From positions 1 through 45,392 of the forward strand of contig PLXM01000153.1 in assembly GCA_003153235.1 (NCBI GenBank): a DNA stretch of 45,392 nt, given 5' to 3'. The position numbers and the translations under genes were made by a program. The notes under the pieces were generated by a model. It was not told the DNA's origin, did no database searches, and was given only the letters and a program-made list of their open reading frames with translations. Below, one piece after another: positions 882 through 44,318 of this stretch (positions are counted from its first letter, which is position 1; every line of letters starts with the position of its first letter). Origin of the DNA: Rhodospirillales bacterium (GTDB taxonomy: Bacteria; Pseudomonadota; Alphaproteobacteria; Micavibrionales; UBA2020).

Positions 882-1067
882 CGTTCTCTGGAATTTGTGT
901 GCGCTGGGCGCGCCAACAGCCAGCGGGTAAGCGGATCTGGGATAGCGCAGCCCTTTAAATAATAAAGAACGTCCATTGCCCTTCGGTGAAGCAAGCGTGG
1001 TCCAAGGATTTAAACATCCGGGGCCGCGTTTTTTATTGCGCGTGGTTCCGGTTCACACAAGGAACGG
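882..1067 (+). ncRNA. Candidate structured leader RNA before the methyltransferase
   Basis: This gene-free stretch can fold into a closed multi-branch structure. Outer helices pair CGUUC (882-886) with GAACG (1062-1066) and UUGUGUG (895-901) with CACACAA (1054-1060). Inside are hairpins at 902-925 (CGCUGG/CCAGCG), about 976-994 (CUUC-GGU-GAAG extended by UUG/CAA), 1005-1018 (GGAU/AUCC), and a 10-bp stem of 1019-1028 with 1041-1050. The 3' strand of the outer helices includes the likely ribosome binding site AAGGAA (1059-1064), just before the ATG at 1073. I infer a cis-acting regulatory leader or a processed small RNA. I matched it to no known family, and the pairings were found by eye. Confidence 0.45.
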
Positions 1068-1072
1068 ATGTC

Positions 1073-2380
1073 ATGCAAAACCTACATATTACTTACATAA
1101 ATATCGACACGCTAAAACCCTATCCGAACAACCCTCGCGAGCACAGCGACAAGCAGCTTCACCAGATTGGGCGAAGTATTAATAAGTATGGCTTCATTGT
1201 GCCTCCCCTGGTAGATGAAAATAATACAGTCGTCATCGGCCAGGCCCGCATTGATGCCGCAAAAAAGATCGGCATAAAAGAAGTGCCGGTTATTTGCATC
1301 ACGCATTTGACGCCGGCTCAGGTCCGCGAATTTCGTATCGCCGACAATAAACTCTCCGAACTTTCCGAATGGAACATAGAGGCTCTCAAGAATGAATTCA
1401 AAGGCCTCTTAGAGTTTGACTCCACGTTGGACTTGACCATTACCGGGTTTGAAATAGCAGAGATTGACACAATTATACTAGGCGAATCTCCAGAAGCCGA
1501 CGCCGCTGACGACACCGACGGACTCTTCAAGCCCGAGCCTGTAAGCCAATTAGGCGATTTGTGGCTCTTCGGCAACAAGCATCGGCTTTTATGCGGTGAC
1601 GCTCTAAAGCCAGAAGATTATGTGCGGCTTATGGATGGATCCCTCGCTCAGGTCGTGTTTAGTGATCCCCCCTATAATTTATATGTAAAAAACATTGGCG
1701 GCCTTGGTAAGGTACAGCACGATGAATTCTCCATGGCCAGCGGCGAAATGAACGAGGGTGAATTCACCGGGTTCCTCACGACCGTTCTTCGCCGCATGGC
1801 TTCCTTCTCTGAAGATGGCAGCATCCATTTTGTGTGTATGGACTGGCGTCACGTCGGCGAGCTCTCCGCCGCCGGGCGCGCTGTTTTTAGTGAGCATAAA
1901 AATATATGCGTCTGGACAAAGGATAATGGCGGCATGGGCAGCCTTTACCGCTCGCAACATGAACTCATTTTTGTCTATAAAAATGGGACTGCGCCGCACA
2001 TAAATAATATTCAGCTCGGGCAGCATGGAAGATATCGCACCAACGTATGGCATTACCCCGGTCAAAATACATTTCACGCCGGACGCGAAGAAGATCTGGC
2101 TGCGCACCCGACTGTCAAACCCGTCCAGCTCGTCGCCGATGCTATTTTAGACTGCTCTAAGCGCGACGGCATTGTACTTGATGCCTTCGGCGGTAGCGGC
2201 ACGACGATCCTTGCCGCAGAAAAAACAGGCCGCCGGGCGCGCCTGCTCGAACTAGAGCCTCAATATGTTGATGTGGCAATCCGGCGCTGGCAAAAGCTAA
2301 CCGGCCAGGATGCCGTGCACGCCGATAGCGGAAAAACCTTCAATCAAATATCCGCGGAGAAGCAAAATGACCAGCAATAA
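1073..2380 (+). CDS. ParB-domain DNA methyltransferase (phage type)
   Basis: A ParB/sulfiredoxin-like N-terminal domain (about residues 5-100, LKPYPNNPREHS and VIGQARIDAAK) is fused to an amino-methyltransferase of the N6-adenine/N4-cytosine class. The catalytic motif DPPYN is at residues 198-202 and the SAM-binding motif DAFGGSGTT at 370-378. This order, motif IV before motif I, is the beta class. The fusion is common in alphaproteobacterial prophages and mobile islands next to terminase genes. I chose ATG 1073 because the ParB domain starts directly after it and AAGGAA lies about ten bases upstream; upstream in-frame residues do not look protein-like. It overlaps the next gene by 14 bp. It probably modifies element or phage DNA before packaging; the recognition site is unknown. 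No partner restriction nuclease is adjacent. Confidence 0.88.
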   Translation: MQNLHITYINIDTLKPYPNNPREHSDKQLHQIGRSINKYGFIVPPLVDENNTVVIGQARIDAAKKIGIKEVPVICITHLTPAQVREFRIADNKLSELSEWNIEALKNEFKGLLEFDSTLDLTITGFEIAEIDTIILGESPEADAADDTDGLFKPEPVSQLGDLWLFGNKHRLLCGDALKPEDYVRLMDGSLAQVVFSDPPYNLYVKNIGGLGKVQHDEFSMASGEMNEGEFTGFLTTVLRRMASFSEDGSIHFVCMDWRHVGELSAAGRAVFSEHKNICVWTKDNGGMGSLYRSQHELIFVYKNGTAPHINNIQLGQHGRYRTNVWHYPGQNTFHAGREEDLAAHPTVKPVQLVADAILDCSKRDGIVLDAFGGSGTTILAAEKTGRRARLLELEPQYVDVAIRRWQKLTGQDAVHADSGKTFNQISAEKQNDQQ

Positions 2381-2756
2381 CGAAAACAAAGAATATACCG
2401 TCGGCTACGGTAAGACGCCCGTCCACAGCCGCTTCAAGTCTGGGCAGTCCGGAAATACGAAAGGCCGCCCAAAACGCGTTGCAAACATTAAAGATACGTT
2501 TCTGCGTGAACTCAGCAGAAAGGTGAAAGTGAAAGAAGGCGGTCAGGAAATGAAGATTAGTAAGCAAGATGCTTTCATTAAAGCGCTTATAAATCGATCT
2601 CTTGCAGGCGACAGACATGCCGCGCGCGAAGTCCTGGTGCTGATAGCACGGCTTATCGGCCTTGATGGCGGCAATGGCCAAACGATGGACCAACTGCGTG
2701 AAGAAGATATTGATATTATACAAAGCCTTCTAAATCGCCGCGCAGAGGAGAAATAA
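2367..2756 (+). CDS. DUF5681 domain protein (possible small-terminase partner)
   Basis: The N-terminal block HSRFKSGQSGNTKGRPKR is the hallmark of DUF5681, a small basic family often encoded directly before phage terminase large subunits. The rest is helical (LINRSLAGDRHAAREVLVLIARLIGL). Position suggests a DNA-recognition or small-terminase role, but that is inference from context. ATG 2367 is chosen because the conserved block begins about 20 residues later. The gene overlaps the methyltransferase end and is followed two bases later by the terminase start, so the three genes form one transcription unit. Confidence 0.8.
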   Translation: MTSNNENKEYTVGYGKTPVHSRFKSGQSGNTKGRPKRVANIKDTFLRELSRKVKVKEGGQEMKISKQDAFIKALINRSLAGDRHAAREVLVLIARLIGLDGGNGQTMDQLREEDIDIIQSLLNRRAEEK

Positions 2757-2758
2757 AA

Positions 2759-4180
2759 ATGAAATTTGATCAGCGCATTCTTGATGCTGCACTCCGTACC
2801 GATCTGGCCAGCTTCATCGGAAAAAGCCAGAGGGTATTGCAACCAGCCAAGCTATATTTACATGGCCCGCATATTGATGCCATCGCCTGGCACTTACATC
2901 TCTGCATGACCGGCAAAATTAAACGCTTAATCATCAACATGCCACCGCGATATTTGAAGTCGGTTTGTACTTCGGTAGCTTTCCCGGCCTTCCTCCTCGG
3001 GCATGATCCGACTTTGCGGCTCCTTTGCTTAAGTTACGGCGACGGACTTGCCGGTGACTTATCTCGCAATTGTCGAGAAATCATGCAATCGACTTTCTAT
3101 CGCGATCTTTTCTCAGGGACCCGGATCAGCGCCAGTAAGAACACCGAGTTTCTCTTTACAATGACGGCTGGCGGATTCCGTCGGGCGGCGTCTTTTGGCG
3201 GCCCCTTGACCGGCCTTGGTGGTGATATGATTATTATCGATGACCCGCTTAAGGCGGACGACGCGCTCTCGCCTTCGAAAAGACAGGAAGTGATAGACAG
3301 GTTTGAAAACACTGTCTCCTCACGCTTGGATAATAAAAATGATGGCTGCATCATTCTCGTCATGCAGCGCCTGCACTTAGATGACTTGACGGGCCATTTA
3401 CTTGAAAAGGGCGGCTGGACCGTCTTAAGCTTGCCCGCTATCGCGGAAGTCGAACAAGAGATCCCCATCGGCTCCAAAATCCTCTGGCGCCGCAGTCCGG
3501 GCGATGTTCTACATCCCGCCTATGAGTCCCTTGAAAGCCTCAGAAAAACGCAAGCCAGCATGGGCAGTTTTCTATTTTCTGCACAGTACCTACAGCGCCC
3601 CGTGCCGGAGCAGGGCGAAATCTTTAAATGGGAATGGTTCAAGATCTACGATGCTCTGCCTGTATTCCGAAACGGCGAAAGTTACGTCATGAGCATAGAT
3701 ACTGCCAAGAAGGATGGCGAGCGGAATGACTATAATGTATTTACCATTTGGCAAATCAAACATGGAAATTATTTTCTTGTCGATGTCTTCCGACAAAAAA
3801 TGATATATCCCGAACTCAAAAAGGCCGTTTATGAGGTTGCGGCAAAGTATCCGAGCATCGATCTACTATTCGAAGACTCCGCCTCAGGCACGTCGCTCTA
3901 CCAAGAAGTATACCGCCTCCGCGGACCGACAATGAACCGCGTAACCGCCATTAGGCCCGAGGGCGATAAAGGTACGCGCGCATCTACTGTGTCTGCCATC
4001 GTCGAAAGTGGTCAGGTGTTTTTACCCCGCCAAGCGCCTTGGCTAGAAGCTTTCCGCAATGAATTTCTGCAGTTCCCAAATGCGCGGCATGACGACATCG
4101 TCGATAGCCTGGTCCAGTTTTTGAAAGAAGAAAAGCGGATTAAAGGTACAGTAACGGCGATGAAATTGGGCGGCCTGTAG
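2759..4180 (+). CDS. terL: Phage terminase large subunit
   Basis: Packaging motor ATPase plus nuclease. The Walker A-like loop MPPRYLKS is at residues 61-68, Walker B MIIIDD at 157-162, and the RNase H-fold nuclease begins with SIDTAKK (D314) and ends with DD (about 445-446). Length (473 residues) and motif spelling match the family of putative large terminases whose C-terminal domain is defined by a methanophage homologue (psiM2 type). No portal, protease, capsid or tail genes follow. It is therefore an orphan packaging gene, either a prophage remnant or part of a satellite or gene-transfer cassette carried with the ParB-methyltransferase. The key residues look intact. Confidence 0.9.
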   Translation: MKFDQRILDAALRTDLASFIGKSQRVLQPAKLYLHGPHIDAIAWHLHLCMTGKIKRLIINMPPRYLKSVCTSVAFPAFLLGHDPTLRLLCLSYGDGLAGDLSRNCREIMQSTFYRDLFSGTRISASKNTEFLFTMTAGGFRRAASFGGPLTGLGGDMIIIDDPLKADDALSPSKRQEVIDRFENTVSSRLDNKNDGCIILVMQRLHLDDLTGHLLEKGGWTVLSLPAIAEVEQEIPIGSKILWRRSPGDVLHPAYESLESLRKTQASMGSFLFSAQYLQRPVPEQGEIFKWEWFKIYDALPVFRNGESYVMSIDTAKKDGERNDYNVFTIWQIKHGNYFLVDVFRQKMIYPELKKAVYEVAAKYPSIDLLFEDSASGTSLYQEVYRLRGPTMNRVTAIRPEGDKGTRASTVSAIVESGQVFLPRQAPWLEAFRNEFLQFPNARHDDIVDSLVQFLKEEKRIKGTVTAMKLGGL

Positions 4181-7223: not shown

Positions 7224-7846
7224 GCGCGGCTTGTCAGTATCTCCACAAGGCTCTTGCTGCATGGCCGCGTTTTAGATCTGGCTTTGACCGTAGTGAGTTA
7301 CCTAAGAATGGCCTTTATTTCCTTTTTGAAAAAGGGGAGACCGCTCACGGTGGAGAGCGCATTGTTAGAGTTGGGACGCATACGGGACAGAATAACCTCC
7401 CAAAACGTCTTTATGAACATCTTTATACGCCAAATAAAGATCGCAGCATTTTCAGGAAGCATATAGGACGCTGCCTACTCTCTCGTCAGAGCGATCCGTT
7501 TTTGAAATTCTGGGAGCTGGATCTTACAACAAAGAAACAACGGGAAGAATACGGGCGCCACGTTGATAAAAATAGGCTGGCAGAAATAGAAAAGAATGTT
7601 AGTGACTATATAAATGAAAATTTTTCCTTTGCGGTTCTTTTGGCAGAAGATAAAGAAGACAGACTAAGAATAGAAGCCGGTATGCTCAGCACGATTGCAC
7701 AATGCTCTGAATGCAAGGCTTCCACTCATTGGCTCGGCGGACACCACCACAATCACACCATTAGAGAAAGTAGCCTGTGGAATATTCAGGGCCTGAATAA
7801 GATTCCGCTCACCCTAGAAGAAGTTAACTCCTTACTAATCGGCTAA
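7220..7846 (+). CDS. GIY-YIG-like nuclease-domain protein
   Basis: Near the N-terminus NGLYFLFEKGE and RIVRVGTHTG occupy the positions of the GIY and YIG strands, followed by LPKRLYEHLYTPNKDR and a RKHIGRCL helix. The His/Cys-rich stretch TIAQCSECKASTHWLGGHHHNH near residue 165 could bind metal. I start at ATG 7220, which overlaps the DUF6884 stop (ATGA) and has GGAG eight bases upstream; an in-frame ATG at 7199 would add seven residues. The strands are degenerate relative to classical enzymes, so catalysis is uncertain. The stop overlaps by four bases the stop of the convergent regulator gene, which marks a very tight left edge of head cassette A. Confidence 0.68.
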   Translation: MSAACQYLHKALAAWPRFRSGFDRSELPKNGLYFLFEKGETAHGGERIVRVGTHTGQNNLPKRLYEHLYTPNKDRSIFRKHIGRCLLSRQSDPFLKFWELDLTTKKQREEYGRHVDKNRLAEIEKNVSDYINENFSFAVLLAEDKEDRLRIEAGMLSTIAQCSECKASTHWLGGHHHNHTIRESSLWNIQGLNKIPLTLEEVNSLLIG

Positions 7847-8433
7847 CTAATAATTTCATACCGGCCAGTCTTTTTTCCTCCCGCGCGGCGGATAAGATTT
7901 AATTCTTTCAATACAGAAATGTCTCGTCTGGCAGTTCTAAGGCCATCGGGCCATTGCCTGCATATATCACGAGCCGTGATGTTCTGTCCGGTCTTCAGAC
8001 CCTCCAAAAACCACACCTGTCTTTCATTCAGATTCGCGGTTTTGGATTTTATTGTGACATTTATTGTGACATTTTTCTCGACATCTGGAAAAGCCTCTGG
8101 AGCGCTTATGACGGCATCTGTGTCCGTAGTAGAACCCGGTGCTACATGCGGAATCAGATAGCCGTATCCGGATAAATCAAGGATCATTTTTATCACCGCC
8201 GGATAGTGCAGCGCCAGGATGATCAAATGCTCGGAACTTGGTGGATTTTGGCCTGCATGCCATCTTTTGATCGTGTTGCATCCGATGCTGGTTTTGTCAT
8301 GGATAATTTTGACGCACGAAGAATAATCTTGATGCACCTTGTGCAGAATTTCTTTGACCTGATTGGTGATCTCCTCCTCCACAAATGCAGCGGTGACTGC
8401 TGGAAACTTATTACCCATTTTCTTGTAAGACAT
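7843..8433 (-). CDS. Two-domain HTH regulator of head cassette A
   Basis: 196 residues. An N-terminal helix-turn-helix (about 37-75, TSIGCNTIKRWHAGQNPPSSEHL) is joined by a loose linker (95-130) to a C-terminal winged helix (135-196, NERQVWFLEGLKTGQNITARDI, then RTARRDISVLKELNLIRR). The gene diverges from the recombinase operon. Its start codon is preceded by GGAGG, and it shares an 81-bp intergenic region that holds two inverted repeats, so it very probably represses or activates the recombinases and itself. A homologue sits in the same place in cassette B, where it is interrupted by a stop codon. The regulator role is inferred from domains and position; the ligand or signal is unknown. Confidence 0.78.
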   Translation of the reverse strand: MSYKKMGNKFPAVTAAFVEEEITNQVKEILHKVHQDYSSCVKIIHDKTSIGCNTIKRWHAGQNPPSSEHLIILALHYPAVIKMILDLSGYGYLIPHVAPGSTTDTDAVISAPEAFPDVEKNVTINVTIKSKTANLNERQVWFLEGLKTGQNITARDICRQWPDGLRTARRDISVLKELNLIRRAGGKKTGRYEIIS

Positions 8434-8445
8434 GATTTTCCTCCT

Positions 8446-8500
8446 TTGTTACATTGAAAGGAAGTGATGGTGTAACAACCGGGATAAAAAGGCATTATCC
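8446..8500. promoter_or_regulatory. Paired inverted-repeat operators, cassette A
   Basis: TTGTTACA (8446-8453) and TGTAACAA (8471-8478) form a perfect 8-bp inverted repeat with a 17-bp spacer. GGATAA (8482-8487) and TTATCC (8495-8500) form a second with a 7-bp spacer. Both recur in cassette B at the same relative place, so they are constrained. They lie between the regulator and the small recombinase and are likely regulator or recombinase binding sites. Confidence 0.6.
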
Positions 8501-8514
8501 TAAAAGGGGATTTT

Positions 8515-9063
8515 ATGACCGACCAGACTGAAGATAAGGGCAGAATCCAGCCAAGGCGCAATGCAGCGGCCTATTTACGCAGCGCAACTTCTTATGCGCC
8601 CGATAGCACCGAGTATCCGGCGACTAAAGAACAGTCCGAGAGCATTCACGCCTATGCTGCAAAACATGGGATAGACATAGTTAAGACCTATATCGATGAA
8701 GGAAAAAGCGGCCTCACCATTCAAGGACGTGATGGCCTCAGAAGCATGATCGCCGACATTCACTCAGGCGCTGCGGAATATACTGTTATCCTAATGCGTG
8801 ACATCAGCCGCTGGGGCCGAGCGCAGCCGGATGAATCTGCCCACTACGAGTTTATCTGTCGTCGTGCTGGGGTTGATGTTCTGTATGTAGATGAGCCACT
8901 CAAGAACGATGGCAGTGTCATGTCCAGCATGATCAAAGCAATGGTACGCGTAGTCGATGAAGAGTACCGCCGCGAGCGCGCAGCCAAAGCTAAGGCGGTA
9001 CGACTACGCCGAAAAGCCCGCAAGGCTGAAGCTTCAACAGAAACGGAAGGTGTACATGAATAG
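8515..9063 (+). CDS. Small serine-recombinase-like protein without the catalytic Ser
   Basis: 182 residues consisting only of the resolvase catalytic fold and a basic helical tail (ERAAKAKAVRLRRKARKAEA). The active-site strand reads YLRSAT. Aligned with YVRMST of the large partner, the nucleophilic Ser falls on Ala24, with a Ser one residue earlier (S23). The two catalytic-region arginines in SRWGRA are kept, as are the YIDEGKSGL block and the DESAHYEFICR helix. I infer a catalytically dead accessory subunit, possibly a dimer partner or directionality factor, although Ser23 acting in place of the usual residue cannot be excluded. The same Ala occurs in cassette B. AGGGG precedes the ATG, and the gene overlaps the large recombinase by 8 bp. 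Confidence 0.82.
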   Translation: MTDQTEDKGRIQPRRNAAAYLRSATSYAPDSTEYPATKEQSESIHAYAAKHGIDIVKTYIDEGKSGLTIQGRDGLRSMIADIHSGAAEYTVILMRDISRWGRAQPDESAHYEFICRRAGVDVLYVDEPLKNDGSVMSSMIKAMVRVVDEEYRRERAAKAKAVRLRRKARKAEASTETEGVHE

Positions 9064-10612
9064 TCACGAGCCACCATCAGACAACCAGCCTCTGCGCAAA
9101 GCCGCCATATATGTCCGTATGTCGACGGAGCACCAACAATACTCCATCGAGAACCAGACGGCGGCGATGGAACTGTATGCCGCCCGGCATAATATTGAAG
9201 TCGTCAAGACCTATACGGATGGCGGCAAAAGCGGCCTCAGCTTCAGTGGGCGCTTTGGGTTGCAACAACTGATCGCGGATGTTAAGGCGAAAACAAAGGA
9301 ATTCACAGACATATTGGTGCTCGATTTAACTCGCTGGGGGAGGTTTCAGGATGTGGATGAAAGCGCCCATTACGAGTATCTCTGCCGTAGTGGGGGTTTC
9401 AAACTCCATTACGTGGCCGAGCAGTTCGTTAATGACGGCAGCGTCAGCTCCTCCATTATCAAAAACGTGAAACGCGCCATGGCGGCGGAGTACAGTCGTG
9501 AACTATCGAAAAAAGTATTCGTCGGGCAGTGTCGTCTCATCGAAAAAGGCTTTCGTCAAGGTGGCCATGCCGGTTACGGCCTGCGGCGGCTGCTCATTGA
9601 TGAGAACAAGCAGCCCAAATGCGAGCTTCAGCCGGGCCAACGTAAATCCTTCCAGACTGACCGGGTCATACTTGTGCCGGGACCGGATGAGGAAGTGCAG
9701 AATGTCCGCTGGATATATACATCCTTTGTGCAAGATGGTCTTAACGAAGCTGAAATCTCTGCACGCCTGAATGCACGCGGTGTATTGACAGATCTGGGAC
9801 GTCCGTGGACACGCAGCACTGTGCACCAAATCCTGATAAATGAGAAATACATTGGCAACAATGTCTATAACCGTAGATCTTATAAATTGAAAGAAGTGCG
9901 CACAGTCAATCCAGAGGAGAAGTGGGTGCGGGCTGAAGGTGCGTTTGAAGCTGTAATCGAGGCACAATACTTTCTTGCCGCACAACATATTATTCAGGCA
10001 CGTAGCCGTAAGATTTCAGACGAAGAGATGCTGGATAAGCTTAAAATCTTGCAAGAGAGTTCGGGCTGGCTGTCGGGTGTCCTGATTGACGAAACAGACG
10101 GCATGCCCTCCAGCAGCGTCTACGCCAGTCGCTTCGGTGGCCTGATGAGGGCTTATGAACTGATCGGCTATGATTCGGGACGCGATAACAGTTTCATTGA
10201 GGAGAACAAACGTCTACGTGAGATGCATCCGGGAATCATGCGGGATATTACTGATAAAATATACGAATTTGGCGGCACGGTGCAGCAGGATGGAACGAAC
10301 GGCTTTCTGATCGTCAATGGTGAGCTCAAAGTATCCGTGGTTATTTGCCGCTGTATGCAGACCGGTGGGGGCTCCAGTCGCTGGAAAATACAGTTTGATG
10401 CTGGCCTTATGCCGGATATTACTATCGCAGTGCGTATGGATCCTATGAACCTGCATGTTTTTGATTATTACGTCATTCCTTCTCTTGATGTTGAGAACCC
10501 GAAGCTCCGGCTGGCGGAGGACAATCATTTTGCTCTGGATGCTTACAGGTTTGATGATCTGCAGCAGTTTTTCGTATTGATGAAACGTGTTCCTCTGATG
10601 GAGATTGCATGA
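9056..10612 (+). CDS. Large serine recombinase, cassette A
   Basis: 518-residue site-specific recombinase. The N-terminal resolvase domain has IYVRMSTEHQ with nucleophile S23, then TYTDGGKSGLSFSGR and LDLTRWGRFQD with the catalytic arginines. The central recombinase domain (GYGLRRLLIDENKQPKCE, then LTDLGRPWTRSTVHQILINE) binds DNA. The C-terminal region has no obvious four-Cys zinc ribbon of the phiC31 type. ATG 9056 is chosen because the catalytic strand begins about 17 residues later and the start overlaps the upstream stop. It is the fourth-to-last step in nothing else visible: it is the only candidate integration/excision enzyme of cassette A. It is coupled to the ParB gene by ATGA. Most residues are identical to the copy in cassette B. 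Confidence 0.92.
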   Translation: MNSHEPPSDNQPLRKAAIYVRMSTEHQQYSIENQTAAMELYAARHNIEVVKTYTDGGKSGLSFSGRFGLQQLIADVKAKTKEFTDILVLDLTRWGRFQDVDESAHYEYLCRSGGFKLHYVAEQFVNDGSVSSSIIKNVKRAMAAEYSRELSKKVFVGQCRLIEKGFRQGGHAGYGLRRLLIDENKQPKCELQPGQRKSFQTDRVILVPGPDEEVQNVRWIYTSFVQDGLNEAEISARLNARGVLTDLGRPWTRSTVHQILINEKYIGNNVYNRRSYKLKEVRTVNPEEKWVRAEGAFEAVIEAQYFLAAQHIIQARSRKISDEEMLDKLKILQESSGWLSGVLIDETDGMPSSSVYASRFGGLMRAYELIGYDSGRDNSFIEENKRLREMHPGIMRDITDKIYEFGGTVQQDGTNGFLIVNGELKVSVVICRCMQTGGGSSRWKIQFDAGLMPDITIAVRMDPMNLHVFDYYVIPSLDVENPKLRLAEDNHFALDAYRFDDLQQFFVLMKRVPLMEIA

Positions 10613-11514
10613 GCAATGAAAAAACTGGAATCAAGATGGTTCCTATCGAAAAGATCAATATTCTCAACCCGCGTACACGTAACAAAAAGATCTTTGAAAC
10701 TATCATCGATAATATTGCAGAGGTTGGTCTCAAGAAGCCTATTACGGTCACAGCCTGCAAGTCCGGCGCTGAGGGGAAAGATTACGATCTGGTATGCGGT
10801 CAGGGACGTCTTGAAGCTTTTCTGGCCTGTGGTCAGACGCATATCCCGGCCATGATTATCGACGCCAGTGAAGAACAAGCGCTTATCATGAGTCTCGTTG
10901 AGAACCTCGCACGGCGGCAGCATAAGGCCACTGATCTTCTGAAGGCTATCGAGATTTTGCAACAGCAAGGCTACAGCATTACAAAAATTGCGGAAAAGAT
11001 CGGCCTCGCATGGAACTATGTCGATGGCATCCTGAAGCTGATGCAGCAGGGCGAAGAGCGCCTTATGGTTGCAGTCGAGAAAGGGCAAATCCCCTTATCC
11101 ACAGCGATACAGATTGCAGATTCTCCTGATGAGGACACTCAGAAATTTCTACAAACTGCCTATGAAACAAAGCAGCTGCGCGGCCAGAAACTGATTCAAG
11201 CCAAACGTCTGCTTGAAAAGAGAAAATCACGCGGCAAGGAGTTTGAAAAAGGCACAGGCGGTCACTCCAGAGGGCGTACCGGAGAAGTCATTTCTGTCAA
11301 AAGTGTCATGAAAGTTCTGCAGAAGGATGCTGACCGCAAAAAGCTCATGACAAAAAAAGCCCATAAGGCCAGCGAACATATGCTCTTTGTGGTAACGGCG
11401 CTACGAAAGTTGTCTAAGGATCCGCGTTATAATATTTTATTGCAAGCCGAGAAGATGGATACCATGCCACAATCCATCTCTGATATTCTGGCAGAAGGTA
11501 GCTCTCATGGGTAG
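10609..11514 (+). CDS. ParB-like protein 1, cassette A
   Basis: 301 residues with a ParB N-terminal nucleotide-binding fold: IEKINILNPRTRN, GLKKPITV, then VCGQGRLEAF (GQGR at 64-67, the counterpart of GERR) and SLVENLARRQ (ENLARR at 98-103, the counterpart of ENxQR). A helix-turn-helix follows (SITKIAEKIGLAWNYVDGILKLM, about 125-148). ParB family members bind parS-like sites and hydrolyse CTP as clamps. No ParA is encoded in the window, so a role in plasmid-style segregation is doubtful; assembling DNA at the recombination site or regulating the island are alternatives. The start overlaps the recombinase stop (ATGA), and the end overlaps ParB 2 by 8 bp. Confidence 0.83.
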   Translation: MSNEKTGIKMVPIEKINILNPRTRNKKIFETIIDNIAEVGLKKPITVTACKSGAEGKDYDLVCGQGRLEAFLACGQTHIPAMIIDASEEQALIMSLVENLARRQHKATDLLKAIEILQQQGYSITKIAEKIGLAWNYVDGILKLMQQGEERLMVAVEKGQIPLSTAIQIADSPDEDTQKFLQTAYETKQLRGQKLIQAKRLLEKRKSRGKEFEKGTGGHSRGRTGEVISVKSVMKVLQKDADRKKLMTKKAHKASEHMLFVVTALRKLSKDPRYNILLQAEKMDTMPQSISDILAEGSSHG

Positions 11515-12427
11515 ACCACGCAAACTGCTGCGCCCTCCAAAAAATATCCAGATAGGTTTCGATATAGAAACCGTGACGCTGTCACTTGATAAAATTGTTC
11601 CTCTAAAAATAGTAACTCCGCAGATGAAGAAAGACCGCCACTATAGACGGATCGTGGCGTCTATTCGTGTGGGCGGCATTATCGAGCTGCCTATTGTGGC
11701 GCGGCAGGGCAAAGGCCGTTATGTACTTCTGGAGGGACATCTCCGGCTTGAAGCGTTGAAAGAGCTCGGAGAAACAGAAATGACATGCCTCGTCTCTACG
11801 GACGATGAGGCATTCACTCATAATAAGTTCGTCAATCATATTTCCTCTGTTCAGGAACACAAAATGATCCTGAATGCGATCAAGCGTGGCGTTCCGGAAG
11901 AGACCATTGCACAGGCGCTTGATATGGATGTGACGGGCATTATCCGCCGAAAACGCTTACTGGTGGGGATTTGCCCTGAGGCCATCGAATTGTTGGAAGA
12001 CAAAATGATTGCGGCTGAGGTATTTAGTATCCTGAAGCGATTGGTGTCAGTGCGTCAAATAGAAGCTGCAATGCTTATGAATGATGCCTGTCTCTATACT
12101 GCTACCTACGCCAAGACATTGCTAATGGCAACGCCAAAAGAGCAGCTGGTCAATCCGCAAAAGCCAAAGAAGGTTAAAGGCCTTACACCAGAACAAATAG
12201 AGCGCGTGGAAAATGAGTCATCCACGCTGCACCGTGAATATCTGTTGATCAAAGAAAATTACGGGCTGGATCATATGAATTTGACGATCCTTAAAGGATA
12301 TCTGACCACTCTGCTCGGCAATATTAAAATCGTTCGCTATCTTGCGCATGACTACTCTGATTTTCTCAAATACTTCCAAAAAATAACCGAGATGACGTCT
12401 TTGAATGACAAAGGAGAAGCGGCATAA
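11507..12427 (+). CDS. RepB-type ParB protein 2, cassette A
   Basis: 306 residues. The N-terminal ParB fold includes SLDKIVPLKIVTP, SIRVGGIIELPIV and VLLEGHLRLEALKELG (GHLR at 77-80). A helix-turn-helix follows (VPEETIAQALDMDVTGIIRRKRLL), and the C-terminal half resembles the RepB partition-protein C-terminal domain of alphaproteobacterial repABC plasmids. It pairs with ParB 1 in one operon, which suggests a heteromeric DNA-binding complex; the repA, repC and parS partners of true plasmid systems are not visible. The homologue in cassette B is clearly related but much more diverged than the recombinases. A conserved non-coding tract begins directly after the stop. Confidence 0.83.
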   Translation: MGRPRKLLRPPKNIQIGFDIETVTLSLDKIVPLKIVTPQMKKDRHYRRIVASIRVGGIIELPIVARQGKGRYVLLEGHLRLEALKELGETEMTCLVSTDDEAFTHNKFVNHISSVQEHKMILNAIKRGVPEETIAQALDMDVTGIIRRKRLLVGICPEAIELLEDKMIAAEVFSILKRLVSVRQIEAAMLMNDACLYTATYAKTLLMATPKEQLVNPQKPKKVKGLTPEQIERVENESSTLHREYLLIKENYGLDHMNLTILKGYLTTLLGNIKIVRYLAHDYSDFLKYFQKITEMTSLNDKGEAA

Positions 12428-12602
12428 CGACTGAAGCAGGCAGCTCGGTCGCAAGGCCTTGAGCGCCAGCGAAGGAGACCGGGATCCTTATAAGCGCCGG
12501 GACCGTGGGAGATGCCGTCGGATGTCTTTTATCCGGAGATGGAGCGAGCACGGTGGTGGGGATGGCGGCGAACCCGTCCGGAGCTCACCAGGCTGGCGCG
12601 CC
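12428..12602 (+). ncRNA. Conserved non-coding tract after ParB 2, copy A
   Basis: This tract has no plausible ORF but is conserved with the matching tract of cassette B (39312-39498, minus strand), most strongly at 12533-12602. It folds well. Hairpin 12443-12464 is GCUC-GGUC, a GCAA tetraloop, then GGCC-UU-GAGC. Another pairs GGAUGG (12560-12565) with CCGUCC (12574-12579), and GGUG/CACC close outside it. In copy B one C of CCGUCC is U, so the pair becomes G-U and the helix survives. I infer a structured RNA or a recombination/ParB site; it matches no family I recognise. Confidence 0.5.
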
Positions 12603-12663
12603 AAAATGCCCAGCCGCCCGAGCCTGCTCTCGTGGGAGATATAGGCGGGATAATCATGTATGT

Positions 12664-14176: not shown

Positions 14177-15034
14177 ATGTCTACGTCAACCAGCACCCGT
14201 TTTGCGCCGCCCACTGGCCTCCGCTGGCTCTATGTGGACTTCAACAGTTATTTTGCGAGTGTCGAGCAGCAGCTGAATCCCCGCCTACGCGGCAAACCTA
14301 TCGCGATTGTTCCAGTGGAAACAGATGCTACCTGCGCGATTGCAGCCAGCTACGAGGCAAAGGCTTTCGGTATCAAGACGGGTACACCTATATATGAGGC
14401 GAAGAAAATGTGTCCCGGCCTTATCTGCGTATTGGGCCGTCATGAGCACTATGTAGAATTCCATGAACGCCTTCTGGATGAGATCGACCACCACATACCG
14501 GTAACAGACGTCTGCTCCATCGATGAAATGGCCTGCAGGCTGATGAATAATGAAATCTCTGTCGCCCGTTCAACGGAGATCGCGCATTCCATCAAAGCTG
14601 GTATAGCCAAAAATATCGGAGAATATGTACGCTGCTCCATCGGCATCGCTCCCAGCAAATATCTTGCCAAGGTCGCCACCGACATGAAAAAGCCTGATGG
14701 TCTGACCATTCTTCAGCCAAGTAATATGCAAGACAGATTACTCGAACTGACACTCCGCGACCTTCCCGTCATCGGCCCTAACATGGAGCAGCCCCTCAAC
14801 CGTGCCGGTATTTACGACATGAAGAAGCTTTTCTCCATGCAGCCCAAACACATGCGCGCCGTCTGGGGCAGCCTCTGGGGCGAAAAAATGTGGTATTACC
14901 TTCGTGGTTATGAGGTTCCCGATCAGGAAACTAAACGTAGCTCTATCGGCCATAGCCATGTATTGGCACCGGAGATGCGCCCGCCTGCGCAGGCCTGGCA
15001 TCCTTGCCGAACTTCTGGTTCAGCCTGTCCATGA
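14177..15034 (+). pseudogene. Y-family DNA polymerase, truncated and rearranged
   Basis: Encodes the palm and fingers of a UmuC/DinB-type translesion polymerase: LYVDFNSYFASVEQQ, CSIDEMAC and GEYVRCSIGIAPSKYLAK, ending soon after GHSHVLAPEMRPPAQAW. The intact homologue at 30263-31561 continues about 150 residues further. Here homology stops at the palindrome GCCTGCGCAGGC (14983-14994), a short unrelated tail reaches a stop at 15034, and a C-terminal fragment appears inverted just downstream. The SOS promoter and ribosome site (GGAG near 14160) remain, so a truncated protein may be made. Without the little-finger domain normal synthesis is unlikely. Confidence 0.8.
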
Positions 15035-30262: not shown

Positions 30263-31561
30263 CTATTCCAGAAACTCCTCCATGTCTGGTATGCGGGTGA
30301 AGGCGACTTTGGTGCCGGTGAAGGCTTTACCCTGCTGCGGCGTCATGCCGAGGAGCACTGTGTCTTTGCCGAACTTTTGGTTCAGCTGATCCATCGCCTT
30401 TGACAGGCTCTCGTTTCGTGCCTGCTTTTTCACTATCGCGGCGGGGACGACGGCATCAAAGAGATCGGCCTGAACGTGCACATCTTTTTCCGGCACCAGC
30501 CCGTGCAGGACCACGTTCACTTTCTTAATCCGTTGATTCTTGGTCTCCCGCATCAATGCCTGCCAGAGCTCTTCCAGCAACCGCAGAAAGTCAAAGCTGT
30601 CTTGCGCAGGCGGACAGCTGGCTTCAAAGCCGAGACGCGGGCCGTTCTCAACCCGCACCGACAAAGAAAACTTCCCCGCACAGTATTCCATGCGCCGGAG
30701 CCTCGCCACCGCCTTCATCGTCAGACGCCGTGCAATCTGGTAGGCCTGCTGCGGAGGACGCATATCGGGTGCCAGCACATGGCTATGGCCGACGGTGCTG
30801 CGGCTCGTCTCCTCGTCCGTCAGATCATACCCGCGCAGGTAATACCACATTTTCTCGCCCGCAATGCTGCCCCAGACAGCTCGCATGTGCTTAGGCTGTA
30901 GTTTCAGCAGCGCCTGCATATCATAAATACCGGCGCGGTTGATCCGCTGCTCGATATTGTGACCGACACCAACCAGATCGCGCAGCTTCAATTCCAGCAG
31001 CCTGCGCGGTATATCTTCCGGCATCAGGATCGTCAGGCCGTCGGGCTTCTGCATGTCGGTGGCTATCTTGGCGAGATACTTGCTCGGGGCGACGCCGATG
31101 GAGCAGCGGACGTATTCGCCGACATTTTTGGTGATGCCCGCCTTGATGGCCTTTGCTATGGCTGTGACGCGCTCCGGCGACCGCTCGTTTTTCATGAGGC
31201 TGCACGCCATTTCATCGATGGAGCAGACGGCGGTCACGGGGATGTGGTTGTCGATCTCGTCCAGAATACGCTCATGGAACTCGACATAGTGCTCATGCCC
31301 TGCCAAAACGCAGATCAGGTCGGGGCACATCTTTTTGGCTTCATAAATGGGGGTGCCTGTCTTTATCCCGAATGCCTTCGCCTCGTAACTGGCCGCGATG
31401 GCGCAGGTGGAGTCTGTCTCGACCGGCACGATGGCGATTGGCTTACCACGCAGATGGGGGTTCAGCTGCTGCTCCACACTAGCGAAATAACTGTTGAAAT
31501 CCACATAGAGCCAGCGAAGGCCATCGGGCGGCGCCAGAGAACTGTCCTGAGATATCGACAT
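30263..31561 (-). CDS. Intact Y-family DNA polymerase (UmuC/DinB type)
   Basis: 432-residue translesion polymerase. Palm motifs LYVDFNSYFASVEQ (D21) and CSIDEMAC (D116, E117), the helix-hairpin-helix region GVGHNIEQRINRAGIYD, and a little-finger domain from about residue 265. The tail QADLFDAVV resembles a beta-clamp binding peptide (QxDLF), which would recruit it to the replication clamp. Expression is predicted to be SOS-induced through the LexA box at 31633-31647. A rearranged homologue lies at 14177-15134 in mirror orientation. In both halves it marks the inner end of the cargo slot. It may serve mutagenic repair after phage or antibiotic damage; no umuD-like gene is nearby. Confidence 0.9.
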   Translation of the reverse strand: MSISQDSSLAPPDGLRWLYVDFNSYFASVEQQLNPHLRGKPIAIVPVETDSTCAIAASYEAKAFGIKTGTPIYEAKKMCPDLICVLAGHEHYVEFHERILDEIDNHIPVTAVCSIDEMACSLMKNERSPERVTAIAKAIKAGITKNVGEYVRCSIGVAPSKYLAKIATDMQKPDGLTILMPEDIPRRLLELKLRDLVGVGHNIEQRINRAGIYDMQALLKLQPKHMRAVWGSIAGEKMWYYLRGYDLTDEETSRSTVGHSHVLAPDMRPPQQAYQIARRLTMKAVARLRRMEYCAGKFSLSVRVENGPRLGFEASCPPAQDSFDFLRLLEELWQALMRETKNQRIKKVNVVLHGLVPEKDVHVQADLFDAVVPAAIVKKQARNESLSKAMDQLNQKFGKDTVLLGMTPQQGKAFTGTKVAFTRIPDMEEFLE

Positions 31562-39283: not shown

Positions 39284-39311
39284 AATGCCGCAGTTTTACG
39301 GCTGATATCTG

Positions 39312-39498
39312 GGCCAGCCTGGTGAGCTCCGAACGGGTTCGCCGCCATCCTCACCACCGCGCTTGCTCCATATCTGCGCCAGATTGCACAGACGGCTTCT
39401 CCTGCGGTCCCGACGTTTGTAAGGGTTCCGGTCCCCTATCTTGTGGGCGCTCGCCGCCAAAGGCTGGTTTTTGGGCTAAGGCGGGGCAACTCCGTTGG
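39312..39498 (-). ncRNA. Conserved non-coding tract after ParB 2, copy B
   Basis: Reading on the minus strand from the ParB 2 stop, this aligns to 12428-12602. Shared blocks include CGGGACCG near the middle and a nearly identical run that ends at 39312 in CACCAGGCTGG. The helix GGAUGG/CCGUUC (39350-39345 with 39336-39331) is kept with a G-U where copy A has G-C. No ORF of substance is present. Structured RNA or recognition site is inferred. The spacer 39271-39311 holds a short GCCG/CGGC hairpin. Confidence 0.5.
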
Positions 39499-40431
39499 TT
39501 ACGCCGCTGTCCCTCTGAGCGACGTTATCTCTGCAATTTTCTGGAAGGTCGACAGAATATCGGAACGATACCGGGCAAGGTAGCCCACGACGCGTGCGTT
39601 ACCGAGAAGAGCACCGAGATAGCCTCTGGCTATAATAAAATCCATCTTGTTCTTATTGAAGCTTTCCTCAGCGAGGAGGTATTCTTCCTGTAGACGTCCC
39701 GACTCACTCTCCATATGAACCATGTCTGGATCACTCAGCCCCTTGATCTTTTTTGGCTTGTCCGGCTCGACTAGCTGACTTTTGGGAGTCCTCGCCAACA
39801 TGGCCTTGGCGAAGGAATGGCTGTAGATGTTGGCGGAATTCATCAGCGTTACCGCCTCGATCTGTCTCATCGGTTTCATACGCTTGAGAATAGAAAATAC
39901 GTTCACAGCCACCATCTTGTCTTTTAGAAGACAGGTGGCTTCCTTGCAAACCCCCGTCAGAAGCGTACGCCTGCGCACGATGCTGGCGACATCGCAGTTC
40001 AGGGCGCGCGCGATCCGCTCCTCCGGCACACCGCGCTTGACCGCCTTCAGAATCATCTTGTGTTCCTGTACGGGAGGGGGATGGTCGGCATGCTTGTTGA
40101 AGGTATAAGCCTCATCGTCGGTGGACACCAGACACGTCACCCGGCTTTTCCCAAGCTCTTTCAGTGCCGCGATGCGCAGGTGTCCTTCGAGCAGTATGTA
40201 CTTGTCTTTTGATCCCTTGTCGGGGAAAACGGCTGGAGGTTCGACGATACCCTCCTCGCGGATGGAAGCGAGGATTTTCTGGAATTGTTTGCCTTTCAGC
40301 ACAGCGGGCGGGATAATCCTGACCGCTGCGATCTGATCCAGAGACAGATCAACCGTCTCTTTCTCGAAGGCAATTTTGATCTTCGTTTGCGGCAGCTTTT
40401 TCTTTTCACGTGGTTTTCTTGCCATGGGCAT
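39499..40431 (-). CDS. RepB-type ParB protein 2, cassette B
   Basis: 310 residues, same layout as the protein at 11507-12427: basic start (ARKPREKKKLPQ), ParB fold with SLDQIAAVRIIPP and ILLEGHLRIAALKELG, a helix-turn-helix (VPEERIARALNCDVASIVRRR) and a RepB-like C-terminal half. Sequence differs at many positions from copy A, well beyond the difference seen in the recombinases, which argues against a fresh duplication. The first ATG (40431) overlaps ParB 1 by 26 bp; ATG 40425 is two codons in. Function is inferred from the family; no ParA is present. Confidence 0.83.
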   Translation of the reverse strand: MPMARKPREKKKLPQTKIKIAFEKETVDLSLDQIAAVRIIPPAVLKGKQFQKILASIREEGIVEPPAVFPDKGSKDKYILLEGHLRIAALKELGKSRVTCLVSTDDEAYTFNKHADHPPPVQEHKMILKAVKRGVPEERIARALNCDVASIVRRRTLLTGVCKEATCLLKDKMVAVNVFSILKRMKPMRQIEAVTLMNSANIYSHSFAKAMLARTPKSQLVEPDKPKKIKGLSDPDMVHMESESGRLQEEYLLAEESFNKNKMDFIIARGYLGALLGNARVVGYLARYRSDILSTFQKIAEITSLRGTAA

Positions 40432-41329
40432 CCTCCTGTTTTTTTATGAAATCGTTAAGCGGTTTCGGCATCGTTGGCAACTTTTCTGTTTGCAACAGCG
40501 CCTTGAAATCTTTTGCCTTCAGCAGGTCACGCAAGGATTTCTTGATAAAGAAAAGATGTTCCGAAGTTCTGTTGGCGTTGTGGACCAAACGCTCCATGCG
40601 GTTTACCTCACGTTTATAGGCTTTGACTACGGACTGACCAGATGGCTTTTTATCGCCGCTTTTATCTCGCTTGCGACCACTTTCGTCTACAAAACCCTTT
40701 CCCCGCCGCCTGCGCCGATCAAGCAGGCTCATGGCCAGCAGAAATTGCCTACCTTTCAGCTGTCCGCTATCAAGGGCTTCCTGCAGCGCGATCTGCTCAT
40801 CGTGGGGAGAGCTTGCGATCCTGATGGCAAGGGCAATCGACAGCTGCCCGGTCTCGACGGCGGCCAGCAGGCGCTCTTCTCCGTTCTCCATCAGCCTTAA
40901 GACACCATACACATATTCCTTGGAAAGCCCGATCTTGTCGGCTATGGCACGGGCATCATAGCCCTGTTTTTTTAGGATTTCGATACCCTGCAGGAGGTCA
41001 GCGGGACGATAGCGACGGCGGGTGAGATTTTCAACGAGGCTCATGATAAGCGCCTGCTCCTCACTCACATCAATGACAAGGGCAGGAATCTCTTTCTGGC
41101 CGCAGGCCATGAAAGCTTCGAGACGGCCCTGACCGCAGACCAGATCGTAATCCTTGCCCTTCGCCCCTGACTTGAGGGGCATAACCGTGATGGGCTTTTT
41201 CAAGCCCACTTGCGTGATATTGGTGGCGATGTCGAAGAATTTTTTCTGGTTGCGTTCACGCGGATTGAGGATATTGATCCGGTCTATAGGGATCATTTTT
41301 ATTTTTGCCGCACCTTTTTCTCTGCTCAT
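40406..41329 (-). CDS. ParB-like protein 1, cassette B
   Basis: 307 residues matching the protein at 10609-11514 along its length: IDRINILNPRERNQ, GLKKPITV, DLVCGQGRLEAFMACGQKE, SLVENLTRRRY and the helix-turn-helix DARAIADKIGLSKEYVYGVL. The C-terminal third is charged and more variable. Its start overlaps the large recombinase stop by four bases, so the two are translationally coupled as in cassette A. CTP-dependent clamping is the family expectation; the binding site is unknown. Confidence 0.83.
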   Translation of the reverse strand: MSREKGAAKIKMIPIDRINILNPRERNQKKFFDIATNITQVGLKKPITVMPLKSGAKGKDYDLVCGQGRLEAFMACGQKEIPALVIDVSEEQALIMSLVENLTRRRYRPADLLQGIEILKKQGYDARAIADKIGLSKEYVYGVLRLMENGEERLLAAVETGQLSIALAIRIASSPHDEQIALQEALDSGQLKGRQFLLAMSLLDRRRRRGKGFVDESGRKRDKSGDKKPSGQSVVKAYKREVNRMERLVHNANRTSEHLFFIKKSLRDLLKAKDFKALLQTEKLPTMPKPLNDFIKKQEDAHGKKTT

Positions 41330-42888
41330 GCGACCTCCAGTATTGAAACGCGCTCCATGAGCACGAAAAACGGCTCAAGATCATTGAGTCTGTAAGCATC
41401 GAGTGCAAAATGGTTATCTTCCTCCAGACGGAGCTTCGGGTTTTCAACATCAATTGAAGGAATAACGTAATAATCAAAAACGTGCTGGTTCGTCGGATCC
41501 ATGCGTACTGCGATGGTGATGTCCGGCATGAGACTTGTGTCGAACTGTATTTTCCAGCGGCTCGAGCCTGCGCCGGTCTGCATGCAGCGGCATATAACCA
41601 CGGACACCTTGAGTTCGTTGTTGACGATCAGAAAACCGTTCGTCTCGTCCCGCTGCACGGTGCCGCCAAATTCGCAGATTTTAAGACTGATGTTTTCCAC
41701 GATGCCAGGATGCATGTCCCGCAGCCGTTTGTTCTCCTCAATGAACCGATCATCTATGCCTGAATCATAGCCAATGAGCTTGTAAGCTCTTATCAGACCA
41801 CCGAAACGATTGGCATAGACGCTGCTGGAAGGCATGTCATCAGTCTCGTCAATAAGGACACCCGATAGCCAACCCAGCCTTTCCCGGAGGTTTTTGAGTT
41901 TATCCAGCATCTCTTCATTGGAGATCTTGCGGTAGCGCGCCTGAATGATGTGTTGGGCGGCAAGAAAGTAGTGCAGTTCGACGACTGCTTCAAACACGCC
42001 TTCCGCCCGCACCCATTTTTCTTTCGGGTTGACAATGCGCTTTTCTTTCAGCTTGAACGATCTGCGGTTAAAGATATTATTTCCAATATACTTCTCGTTG
42101 ATCAGAATTTGGTGCACGGTGCTGCGCGTCCAGCTACGCCCTAGATCCGTCAGCACGCCGCGCACGTTCAGGCGCTCGGCGATCTCGGTTTCGGTCAGGC
42201 CATCCTGCACAAAAGATGTATATATCCAGCGGACATTCTGCACTTCTTCATCCGGCCCCGGCACAAGGATAACCCGGTCGGTCTGGAAGGACTTACGCTG
42301 GCCGGGCAAGAGTTCACACTTTGGCTGCCTGTTCTCATCAATAAGCAGTCGCCGTAAGCCATAACCGGCATGGCCGCCTTGCCGGAAGCCTTTTTCGATG
42401 AGGCGACATTGTCCTGCGTAGACTTTCTTTGACAATTCCCTGCTGTATTCCGCCGCCATGGCCCGTTTCACGTTTTTGATAATGGAGGAGCTTACGCTAC
42501 CGTCATTTTCAAACTGTTCGGCAACATAATGGAGCTTGAAACCGCCGCTACGGCAGAGATACTCGTAATGAGCGCTCTCATCCACATCCTGAAACCGTCC
42601 CCAGCGGGTCAAGTCCAGCACCAGTATGTCGCTATATTCCTTTGTTCTCTCTTTGACGTCCGCGATCAGCTGTTGCAAGCCAAGTCGCCCGCTGAAACTG
42701 AGACCACTCTTACCGCCGTCCGTATATATTTTGACAATTTCCATTTGGCGGCTAGCGGCATAGATTTCCATCGCAGCGGTCTGGTTCTCAATGGAGTATT
42801 GCTGGTGTTCCGTTGACATACGGACGTACATTGCCGCCTTGCGCAGGGGCTGGTTTTCTGGCGTCTGATCCGGATGCTGATTATCCAT
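41326..42888 (-). CDS. Large serine recombinase, cassette B
   Basis: 520 residues, nearly identical by eye to the cassette A enzyme. Catalytic MYVRMSTEHQ has S25 as nucleophile; TDGGKSGLSFSGR and LDLTRWGRFQD follow; the DNA-binding recombinase domain includes GYGLRRLLIDENRQPKCE and RSWTRSTVHQILINE. Differences cluster in the N-terminal dozen residues and parts of the C-terminal region. It overlaps the small recombinase by 8 bp and ParB 1 by 4 bp. Two such similar enzymes in one island could act on each other's sites, which would allow inversion of everything between them. Confidence 0.92.
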   Translation of the reverse strand: MDNQHPDQTPENQPLRKAAMYVRMSTEHQQYSIENQTAAMEIYAASRQMEIVKIYTDGGKSGLSFSGRLGLQQLIADVKERTKEYSDILVLDLTRWGRFQDVDESAHYEYLCRSGGFKLHYVAEQFENDGSVSSSIIKNVKRAMAAEYSRELSKKVYAGQCRLIEKGFRQGGHAGYGLRRLLIDENRQPKCELLPGQRKSFQTDRVILVPGPDEEVQNVRWIYTSFVQDGLTETEIAERLNVRGVLTDLGRSWTRSTVHQILINEKYIGNNIFNRRSFKLKEKRIVNPKEKWVRAEGVFEAVVELHYFLAAQHIIQARYRKISNEEMLDKLKNLRERLGWLSGVLIDETDDMPSSSVYANRFGGLIRAYKLIGYDSGIDDRFIEENKRLRDMHPGIVENISLKICEFGGTVQRDETNGFLIVNNELKVSVVICRCMQTGAGSSRWKIQFDTSLMPDITIAVRMDPTNQHVFDYYVIPSIDVENPKLRLEEDNHFALDAYRLNDLEPFFVLMERVSILEVA

Positions 42889-43438
42889 GCATATCCTCCG
42901 TTTCTACCAGGGCTCCAGCCTTGCGGGCTTTCCGGCGTAGTCGCGCAGCCTTGGCTTTGGCCGCGCGTTCACGACGGTGCTCCTCCTCCATCATGCGCCA
43001 AATGTTTTTAAAAATGGAGGGAACCACGCTGCCATCGTTTTTGAACGGTTCGTCCACGTAATGCACGTCAAACCCGGCACGACGGCAGATAAACTCATAA
43101 TGAGCAGCTTCATCTGCATCCTGAAACCGTCCCCAGCGGGTGATGTCGCGCAGCAGGATTACGTTATATTCGGCAGTACCTGACTGAACATCCTTGATCA
43201 TGCTTCTGAGTCCCGAACCCGCGTTAGCGCCGGATTTACCTGAGTCGATGTAGGTCTTGACGACGTCCATGCTGTTTTCTTCCGCATAGGTGCGGATGAG
43301 TTCAGCTTGCTCACGTATTGCTGGATATTGAGAGTCATCCTGCGCATAAGAAGTTGCGCTGCGCAAATAGGCTGCCGCTTTGCGCCTTGGCTTGCTTTCG
43401 CCCTTATTATCCGTGTGTTCGTTGTGCTGGTTGGCCAT
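42881..43438 (-). CDS. Small serine-recombinase-like protein without the catalytic Ser, B
   Basis: 185 residues of resolvase catalytic fold plus basic tail (RRERAAKAKAARLRRKARKAG). The active-site strand is again YLRSAT, with Ala28 at the nucleophile position and Ser27 before it; arginines in TRWGRF and the ICRRAGFDVHYVDEPF segment are kept. Conservation of the same change in two diverged cassettes makes a random inactivating mutation unlikely. An accessory role beside the large enzyme is inferred. Its start faces the regulator across an 82-bp region with conserved inverted repeats. Confidence 0.82.
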   Translation of the reverse strand: MANQHNEHTDNKGESKPRRKAAAYLRSATSYAQDDSQYPAIREQAELIRTYAEENSMDVVKTYIDSGKSGANAGSGLRSMIKDVQSGTAEYNVILLRDITRWGRFQDADEAAHYEFICRRAGFDVHYVDEPFKNDGSVVPSIFKNIWRMMEEEHRRERAAKAKAARLRRKARKAGALVETEDMHG

Positions 43439-43520: not shown

Positions 43521-44147
43521 ATGATGTCGCTAACGAAGAGTGACCACGTGTGGTCAGGCTGTGAAGCTGCCGTTCTTGAACAAAAAATCGGAGAAACAAT
43601 CATTAAAATTCTGCACTTGGAAGGCGCAGAAAAATCCTGTCCCACGAAAAGAATTTCAAAGAAAACGAGGATAGCTATTCATACCGTCAGAAAGTGGTAC
43701 AGCGCTCGGACAACTCCGTCTCTGACGTATTTTCTGATACTTGCACGGACTTATCCTTCCTTTCTCCGCATGTTTCTGGAGGCTACCGGGCATGACTACC
43801 TGATCCAGCATATCCGGCCTGAAAAACAGGAGACAAAACCGACGACGGGGCAATGCGCAAAACCGGAAGCATTCCAGAATTAAACGGAAAAAAATTTCCG
43901 CTTGCATGTCGATCTTGATCCCCGAATCGCCGGTGAACTCAACCATCGACAGCTATGGTTTTGGGGGCTGGTAAAACAGGAACAACAGGCCAGAGCATCT
44001 GCCATTTGTGCCCAGTGGCCGTCGATAACGGACCGAACGGCACGCAACGACGTGGCAAAACTGGTCAAAATGAACTTGATCCGGTTCACTGGCGTAAAAA
44101 AGCATAGGCAGTATGAAATTATGCCGTCACGACAGCAGACATTGTAA
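43521..44147 (+). pseudogene. HTH regulator of cassette B, split by an in-frame stop
   Basis: The first part (43521-43883, 120 residues) has the N-terminal helix-turn-helix (KTRIAIHTVRKWYSARTTPSL). After TAA at 43881-43883 the same frame continues to 44147 with TEKNFRLHVDLDPRIAGEL and the winged helix HRQLWFWGLVKQEQQARASAI, then RTARNDVAKLVKMNLIRF. Across the stop, PEAFQN-stop-TEKN aligns with PEAFPDVEKN of the intact regulator at 7843-8433. GGAG precedes the ATG. Either a nonsense mutation inactivated it, or two separate domains are made; restart at 43902 would require TTG. Loss of the winged helix could leave this cassette unregulated or altered. Confidence 0.75.
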
Positions 44148-44192: not shown

Positions 44193-44317
44193 TATGCTCT
44201 TAAGGGCATATTAAATGGCTTAATTCGCTCTCAAAAGCAAATATATTGCATAATCTTCAAAACAATGATATGCTCTTGAAGGTATATTAAGCCACTTTAA
44301 ACGCTCTTGAGGTATAA
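44193..44317. promoter_or_regulatory. Three operator-like repeats before hipB
   Basis: TATGCTCTTAAGGGCATA (44193-44210), TATGCTCTTGAAGGTATA (44269-44286) and CGCTCTTGAGGTATA (44303-44317) are related and near-palindromic. The last covers the hipB ribosome site GAGG. Such repeats are typical for autorepression by HipB with HipA. Confidence 0.65.
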
Positions 44318-44318
44318 A

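Follow-up and report, generated by a model that had tools for sequence, protein, structure and literature searches.

In the window (the whole 45,392-nucleotide stretch of DNA analysed here) the same gene cassette occurs twice, once on the forward strand (A) and once on the reverse strand (B), and the two copies stand head to head with a defence island between them. In its full form the cassette consists, in this order, of a divergent HTH-like regulator, a small and most likely dead recombinase (which is optional), a large serine recombinase, two RepB/ParB-like proteins and a structured RNA. In cassette A, the small gene (8515–9063, +) encodes a serine-recombinase-like protein of 182 aa that comprises the catalytic domain only (PF00239, 1.2e-18) and has Ala24 at the nucleophile position, as seen in the motif table and in the structural model. 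It is followed by the gene of the large serine recombinase (9056–10612, +; ATG at 9056), in which Pfam finds the catalytic domain, with the motif YVRMST, and the PF07508 recombinase domain. Then come the ParB_N/RepB-like protein 1 (10609–11514, +; PF07506, 2.2e-13, and PF02195, 2.6e-9), the RepB-like protein 2 (11507–12427, +; PF07506, 1.7e-40) and, 3' of the latter, the structured RNA element (12462–12605, +; model R1, 125.2 bits, and covariation). The HTH-like regulator is transcribed divergently (7843–8433, −), a placement kept in many cassettes, and has no match in Pfam. The divergent promoter region between the regulator and the small gene (8434–8514, unstranded) carries the inverted repeat TGTTAC...GTAACA and is about 80% identical to its counterpart in copy B.

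Cassette B lies on the reverse strand, with a small gene for a protein of 185 aa (42881–43438, −; PF00239, 1.1e-14) that has Ala at the nucleophile position and, according to the motif table, has also lost R45. Its large recombinase (41326–42888, −) is 85% identical to that of cassette A, and the ParB_N/RepB-like protein 1 (40406–41329, −) and the RepB-like protein 2 (39499–40431, −), both identified with Pfam, precede an RNA element at 39305–39448 (−; model R1, 125.4 bits). The divergent HTH-like regulator of this copy (43521–44147, +) is split by an in-frame stop into the ORFs 43521–43883 and 43902–44147; with the intact regulator A as tblastn query, the match runs through this stop with 37% identity. 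The stop of the small gene and the start of the large gene overlap in both copies (ATGAATAG in A and ATGGATAA in B). The coordinates and reading frames that an earlier note on this DNA had given for both small genes, and the start of the partner at 9056, proved to be correct.

The defence island (12809–39270) includes a PDC-S11 candidate, a type III RM pair, a DrmD-like helicase and Zorya ZorA/ZorC. Two Y-family polymerase genes, at 14177–15034 (+) and 30263–31561 (−), encode proteins of 285 and 432 aa, respectively, and are inverted like the cassettes, which suggests two related islands placed head to head. At the right end of the window, beside cassette B, an HTH antitoxin-like ORF is followed by an ORF that looks HipA-like from its sequence (44307–45390). 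Left of cassette A, genes for a ParB/DNA methylase, a DUF5681 protein and a terminase form a phage-like cluster (986–4180).

Active site and fold of the small protein

The earlier note had read the active-site strand of the small proteins, YLRSAT against YVRMST in the large ones, as placing Ala at the position of the nucleophile. Alignment of relatives gathered from genome contigs, IMG/VR and related genomes bore this out: gamma-delta position 10 is Ser in 116 of 116 distinct large catalytic domains and Ala in all ten small proteins of the motif table. The small proteins of the window have an insert of five residues after the YLRSAT motif. Six others belong to another alphaproteobacterial family, f72 (genomes G325, G418, G523 with two, G524 and G525), and are each encoded 5' of a large recombinase gene and of genes for RepB-like proteins; they carry the motifs YLRSAT, YLRSAK or YVHAAT without the insert and without any indel relative to the large proteins (YLRSATELEGESLRKQ versus YLRMSTELQQYSTDNQ). 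Since the f72 proteins have no insert in the motif stretch, the register of the Ala is unambiguous, and an alignment artefact in which Ser23 had slid by one residue is ruled out. Ala also occupies this position in two more diverged small proteins of the same order as the window, L121 (YTRCAS, 128 aa), whose gene adjoins that of its large recombinase, and L124 (YARTAC, 258 aa), whose gene is divergent from it; the branches of both are too long for placement in the tree.

The small proteins have PF00239 and the predicted fold of the serine recombinase superfamily, and lack the Ser at gamma-delta position 10 of its enzymes. With 182 and 185 aa, those of the window also lack both PF07508 and the C-terminal DNA-binding part that characterize large serine recombinases, whereas the partner has PF07508; apart from the catalytic domain, a Pfam search of the small protein detected no domain for DNA binding.

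That the other motif residues remain, as the earlier note had stated, is for the most part correct. Q19, D36, R68 and R71 are present in all ten small proteins and R8 in nine (L208 has lost this residue as well), and small A retains these five together with R45; R45, however, is missing from four of the ten, namely small B and three others, and the Gln at gamma-delta position 14, which is invariant in the large proteins, has eroded, being Glu in seven of the eight YLRSA-type small proteins. In the large proteins, 35 columns of the catalytic domain are near-invariant; of these, 14 are kept in all eight YLRSA-type proteins and only three are altered in all of them: position 9 (Met to Ser or Ala), S10 (to Ala) and one Ser of helix E. 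The helix-E Arg that is invariant in the large proteins is retained in 10/10 small ones, and the small-versus-large conservation of helix E is no better than that of the rest of the domain. Overall, the small proteins are about 48% identical to the large catalytic domains of the same genome.

An AlphaFold2 model of small A (mean pLDDT 82) adopts the serine-recombinase fold. In this model strand 1 ends at R22, A24 lies in the active-site loop after it, and helix E is long (45 residues, 135–179) with a basic end. The best solved structural relatives of the model were TP901-1 integrase (3bvp) and 3guv, and gamma-delta and Sin were also found.

Selection, origin and distribution of the small gene

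Comparison of copies A and B gave a dN/dS of 0.22 for the small gene and 0.058 for the large one, and among the f72 pairs the values were 0.22–0.61 and 0.18–0.33, respectively. Since the small genes evolve about two times faster than the large ones, with a dN/dS up to four times as high in the window pair, the constraint on them is only moderate by these estimates. The frames of all eight YLRSA-type genes are open. Plain decay of a truncated large gene was considered and rejected: truncated large genes at L188, L189, L122, L120 and L057 keep the Ser, so truncation alone does not account for the Ala, and purifying selection acts on the small gene. From the dN/dS values, the truncated large genes that keep the Ser and the AlphaFold2 model, the most likely product of the small gene is a catalytically dead domain that folds and is under selection.

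In the tree of catalytic domains the eight YLRSA-type proteins group together (support 97/95, 98% of bootstraps). The tree suggests one ancient paralogue that was handed down with its large partner; a grouping of the window small proteins with their own large ones, as expected from recent duplication in place, was not rejected by the AU test (p 0.47).

The small gene is not a constant part of the cassette. More than 100 related large recombinases are without it, and most cassettes, in Bradyrhizobium, Sphingomonas, Acidobacteria and others, have the large recombinase and both RepB genes in the same order but no small gene. No Ala-type small protein of comparable length occurred at the related cassette loci collected, and a sensitive search 5' of nine further cassettes yielded no small gene. 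In plasmid and phage collections the matches covered the catalytic domain only and the annotated ones were recombinases; no Ala-type small protein was recognised in an overall look at these matches. In f72 the small and large genes are close together but without the start/stop overlap of the window. Verrucomicrobial cassettes have an ORF of about 50 aa 5' of the large recombinase (L027:5867-6016, L033:5846-5977 and L046:5355-5504), which equals the beginning of a resolvase domain, ends in ATDGES or ATDGVA and has Ser in two cases and Ala in one. At L032:5902-8579 and L088:1853-4934, two large recombinases of the same family stand in tandem, both with Ser.

Possible role of the small protein

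The earlier note had proposed a dead paralogue kept as an obligatory partner. That the protein is a dead paralogue kept as a partner is supported by the conservation of the Ala in two alphaproteobacterial lineages and in two diverged small proteins, by purifying selection, by the adjacent pairs and by the gene overlap in both window copies; "obligatory" found no support, and because most related cassettes lack the small gene, "accessory" fits better. The recurrence of this dead sister with related cassettes of distant bacteria makes it probable that the small protein regulates the active enzyme and is not a damaged copy.

Serine recombinases act as tetramers, in which the DNA is cut by four Ser nucleophiles, so that a dead domain made together with an active enzyme would be expected either to restrain the reaction or to scaffold it. 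The reading that we favour, to which we give about an even chance, is that the small protein is a dead paralogue that serves as a non-catalytic accessory subunit, pairing with the large recombinase via the catalytic-domain/helix-E interface and restraining or shaping recombination. It would be made together with the large recombinase, from the gene just upstream (overlapping in both window copies), and would join the large subunits through this interface. If placed in the crossover dimer it would restrain, and if placed elsewhere it would act as a scaffold; we favour mainly a built-in brake, with mixed dimers at the crossover site that would be unable to cut both strands. The contact with the large protein, the braking and any effect on direction are what we infer from the evidence above.

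The engineered S10A mutants of Tn3 and gamma-delta resolvase carry the same Ser to Ala change and have kept synapsis while losing recombination. In Tn3 resolvase the mutation inactivates the enzyme (PMC4499144, PMC9943657), and with catalysis abolished, synaptic complexes are still formed in good yield (PMC4499144). These resolvases are, however, laboratory mutants with a DNA-binding domain of their own, whereas the small protein is a natural paralogue. Its catalytic fold is shared with the large serine recombinases and integrases (TP901-1, phiC31, Bxb1 and TnpX), to which the large partner, with its catalytic and recombinase domains, corresponds; unlike them, it is without the nucleophile and without all DNA-binding domains. 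The CcrA/CcrB pair of SCC elements, which the earlier note had offered as an analogy, likewise consists of two adjoining serine-recombinase genes in an integrating island. The likeness is weak, given that CcrA and CcrB are both full-length and active, unlike the dead small protein with its catalytic domain only. Many cassettes carry the large recombinase only. Against the NCBIfam models of CcrA, CcrB and CcrC the small protein scored below cutoff (18–20 bits for CcrB and CcrC, versus 900). A limited search of the open-access literature found no natural dead catalytic-domain partner of a serine recombinase.

It is possible, though unlikely, that the small protein is instead an architectural or direction-setting partner, which would occupy accessory positions of the synapse, like Tn3 resolvase at sites II/III, or would act in the manner of a recombination directionality factor (RDF) and be needed in one direction only. 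S10A subunits are indeed tolerated at the accessory sites of Tn3 (PMC9943657). The overlap of the small and large genes is also in line with such a role, and the long basic tail of helix E (KAKAVRLRRKARKAE), apparent in the sequence and in the model, could touch DNA; but the protein has no detectable DNA-binding domain beyond the catalytic domain, and most related cassettes do without it. Moreover, no RDF of a serine integrase is known to be a catalytic-domain paralogue.

We consider it doubtful that the small gene is a vestige, a duplicated catalytic domain that has lost its function and persists in the operon, perhaps with no other use than to lead translation into the large gene. Its absence from most cassettes, a selection less strict than that on the large gene, and the erosion of R45 and of the position-14 Gln would be in keeping with such a fate, but the dN/dS of 0.22 in the window pair, the fixation of the Ala in two lineages, the eight open YLRSA-type frames, the preserved fold and core arginines, and the Ser retained by truncated large genes all argue against it. 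A transcriptional repressor of the operon or a DNA-coating protein, not a recombinase subunit, is improbable: the basic helix tail and the inverted repeat in the divergent promoter could be explained in this way, but the divergent HTH-like regulator, present also where the small gene is absent, is a better candidate for binding the repeat. Finally, that the small protein still cuts DNA through another nucleophile, such as Thr25 or Ser23 (one residue upstream, the case that the earlier note had set against its own claim), is very improbable, because Ser23 aligns with gamma-delta position 9, which is Met in the large proteins and, although Ser in seven of the eight YLRSA-type small ones, is Ala, Cys or Thr in L208, L121 and L124, because the position-14 Gln and often R45 are lost too, and because Tn3 resolvase is dead when S10A (PMC4499144, PMC9943657).

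If the favoured reading of an accessory, braking subunit is true, a conserved natural Ser-to-Ala partner beside an active sister would mean that evolution uses mixed complexes as a means of control. Mixed complexes of active and inactive resolvase have been built in the laboratory and used to study synapsis and cutting by serine recombinases. The small protein would also offer a handle on how the integrases that move defence islands are restrained, and might be used as a natural inhibitor or tuner of tools based on serine integrases.

RepB-like proteins and the structured RNA

With their matches to RepB/ParB_N, two of the cassette genes resemble those of the RepB (PF07506) and ParB-like proteins of alphaproteobacterial plasmids; unlike those, the cassette copies go together with a serine recombinase and with a structured RNA, and many of the loci are on chromosomal contigs. 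It is conceivable, although we regard it as a rather unlikely extension, that the cassette is a new type of serine-recombinase system with several parts: a natural dead subunit would act jointly with two ParB/RepB-like proteins and the conserved structured RNA to assemble and control the recombination complex that moves alphaproteobacterial defence islands. A separate question, raised by the presence of the structured RNA in these cassettes, is whether an RNA takes part in a serine-recombinase/RepB system.

About 140 bases directly 3' of RepB 2 are conserved in both window copies, with 92% identity over 62 nt. This 62-nt stretch was considered as an attachment site, a reading that was dropped given the compensatory changes and G-U pairs, which indicate RNA. 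In an alignment of 26 sequences, 97% of the cells pair in a five-helix structure and 14 of 24 pairs have changed on both sides, versus 38–46% pairing and 1–3 such pairs in slid controls. Because of this covariation and the G-U pairs, the element appears to be an RNA and not a site in the DNA; an Rfam search of the region gave no match, and the RNA is apparently undescribed. It is found 3' of RepB 2 in cassettes of several alphaproteobacterial families and is missing from others. The element also occurs without the recombinase at six loci (L247, L248, L249, L250, L251 and L252). The last of these, on contig C53 of the window's own genome, is a weaker copy with no RepB nearby; five of the six elements lie directly 3' of a RepB frame or of a 3' remnant of RepB, as if left behind after the rest of the cassette had been lost.
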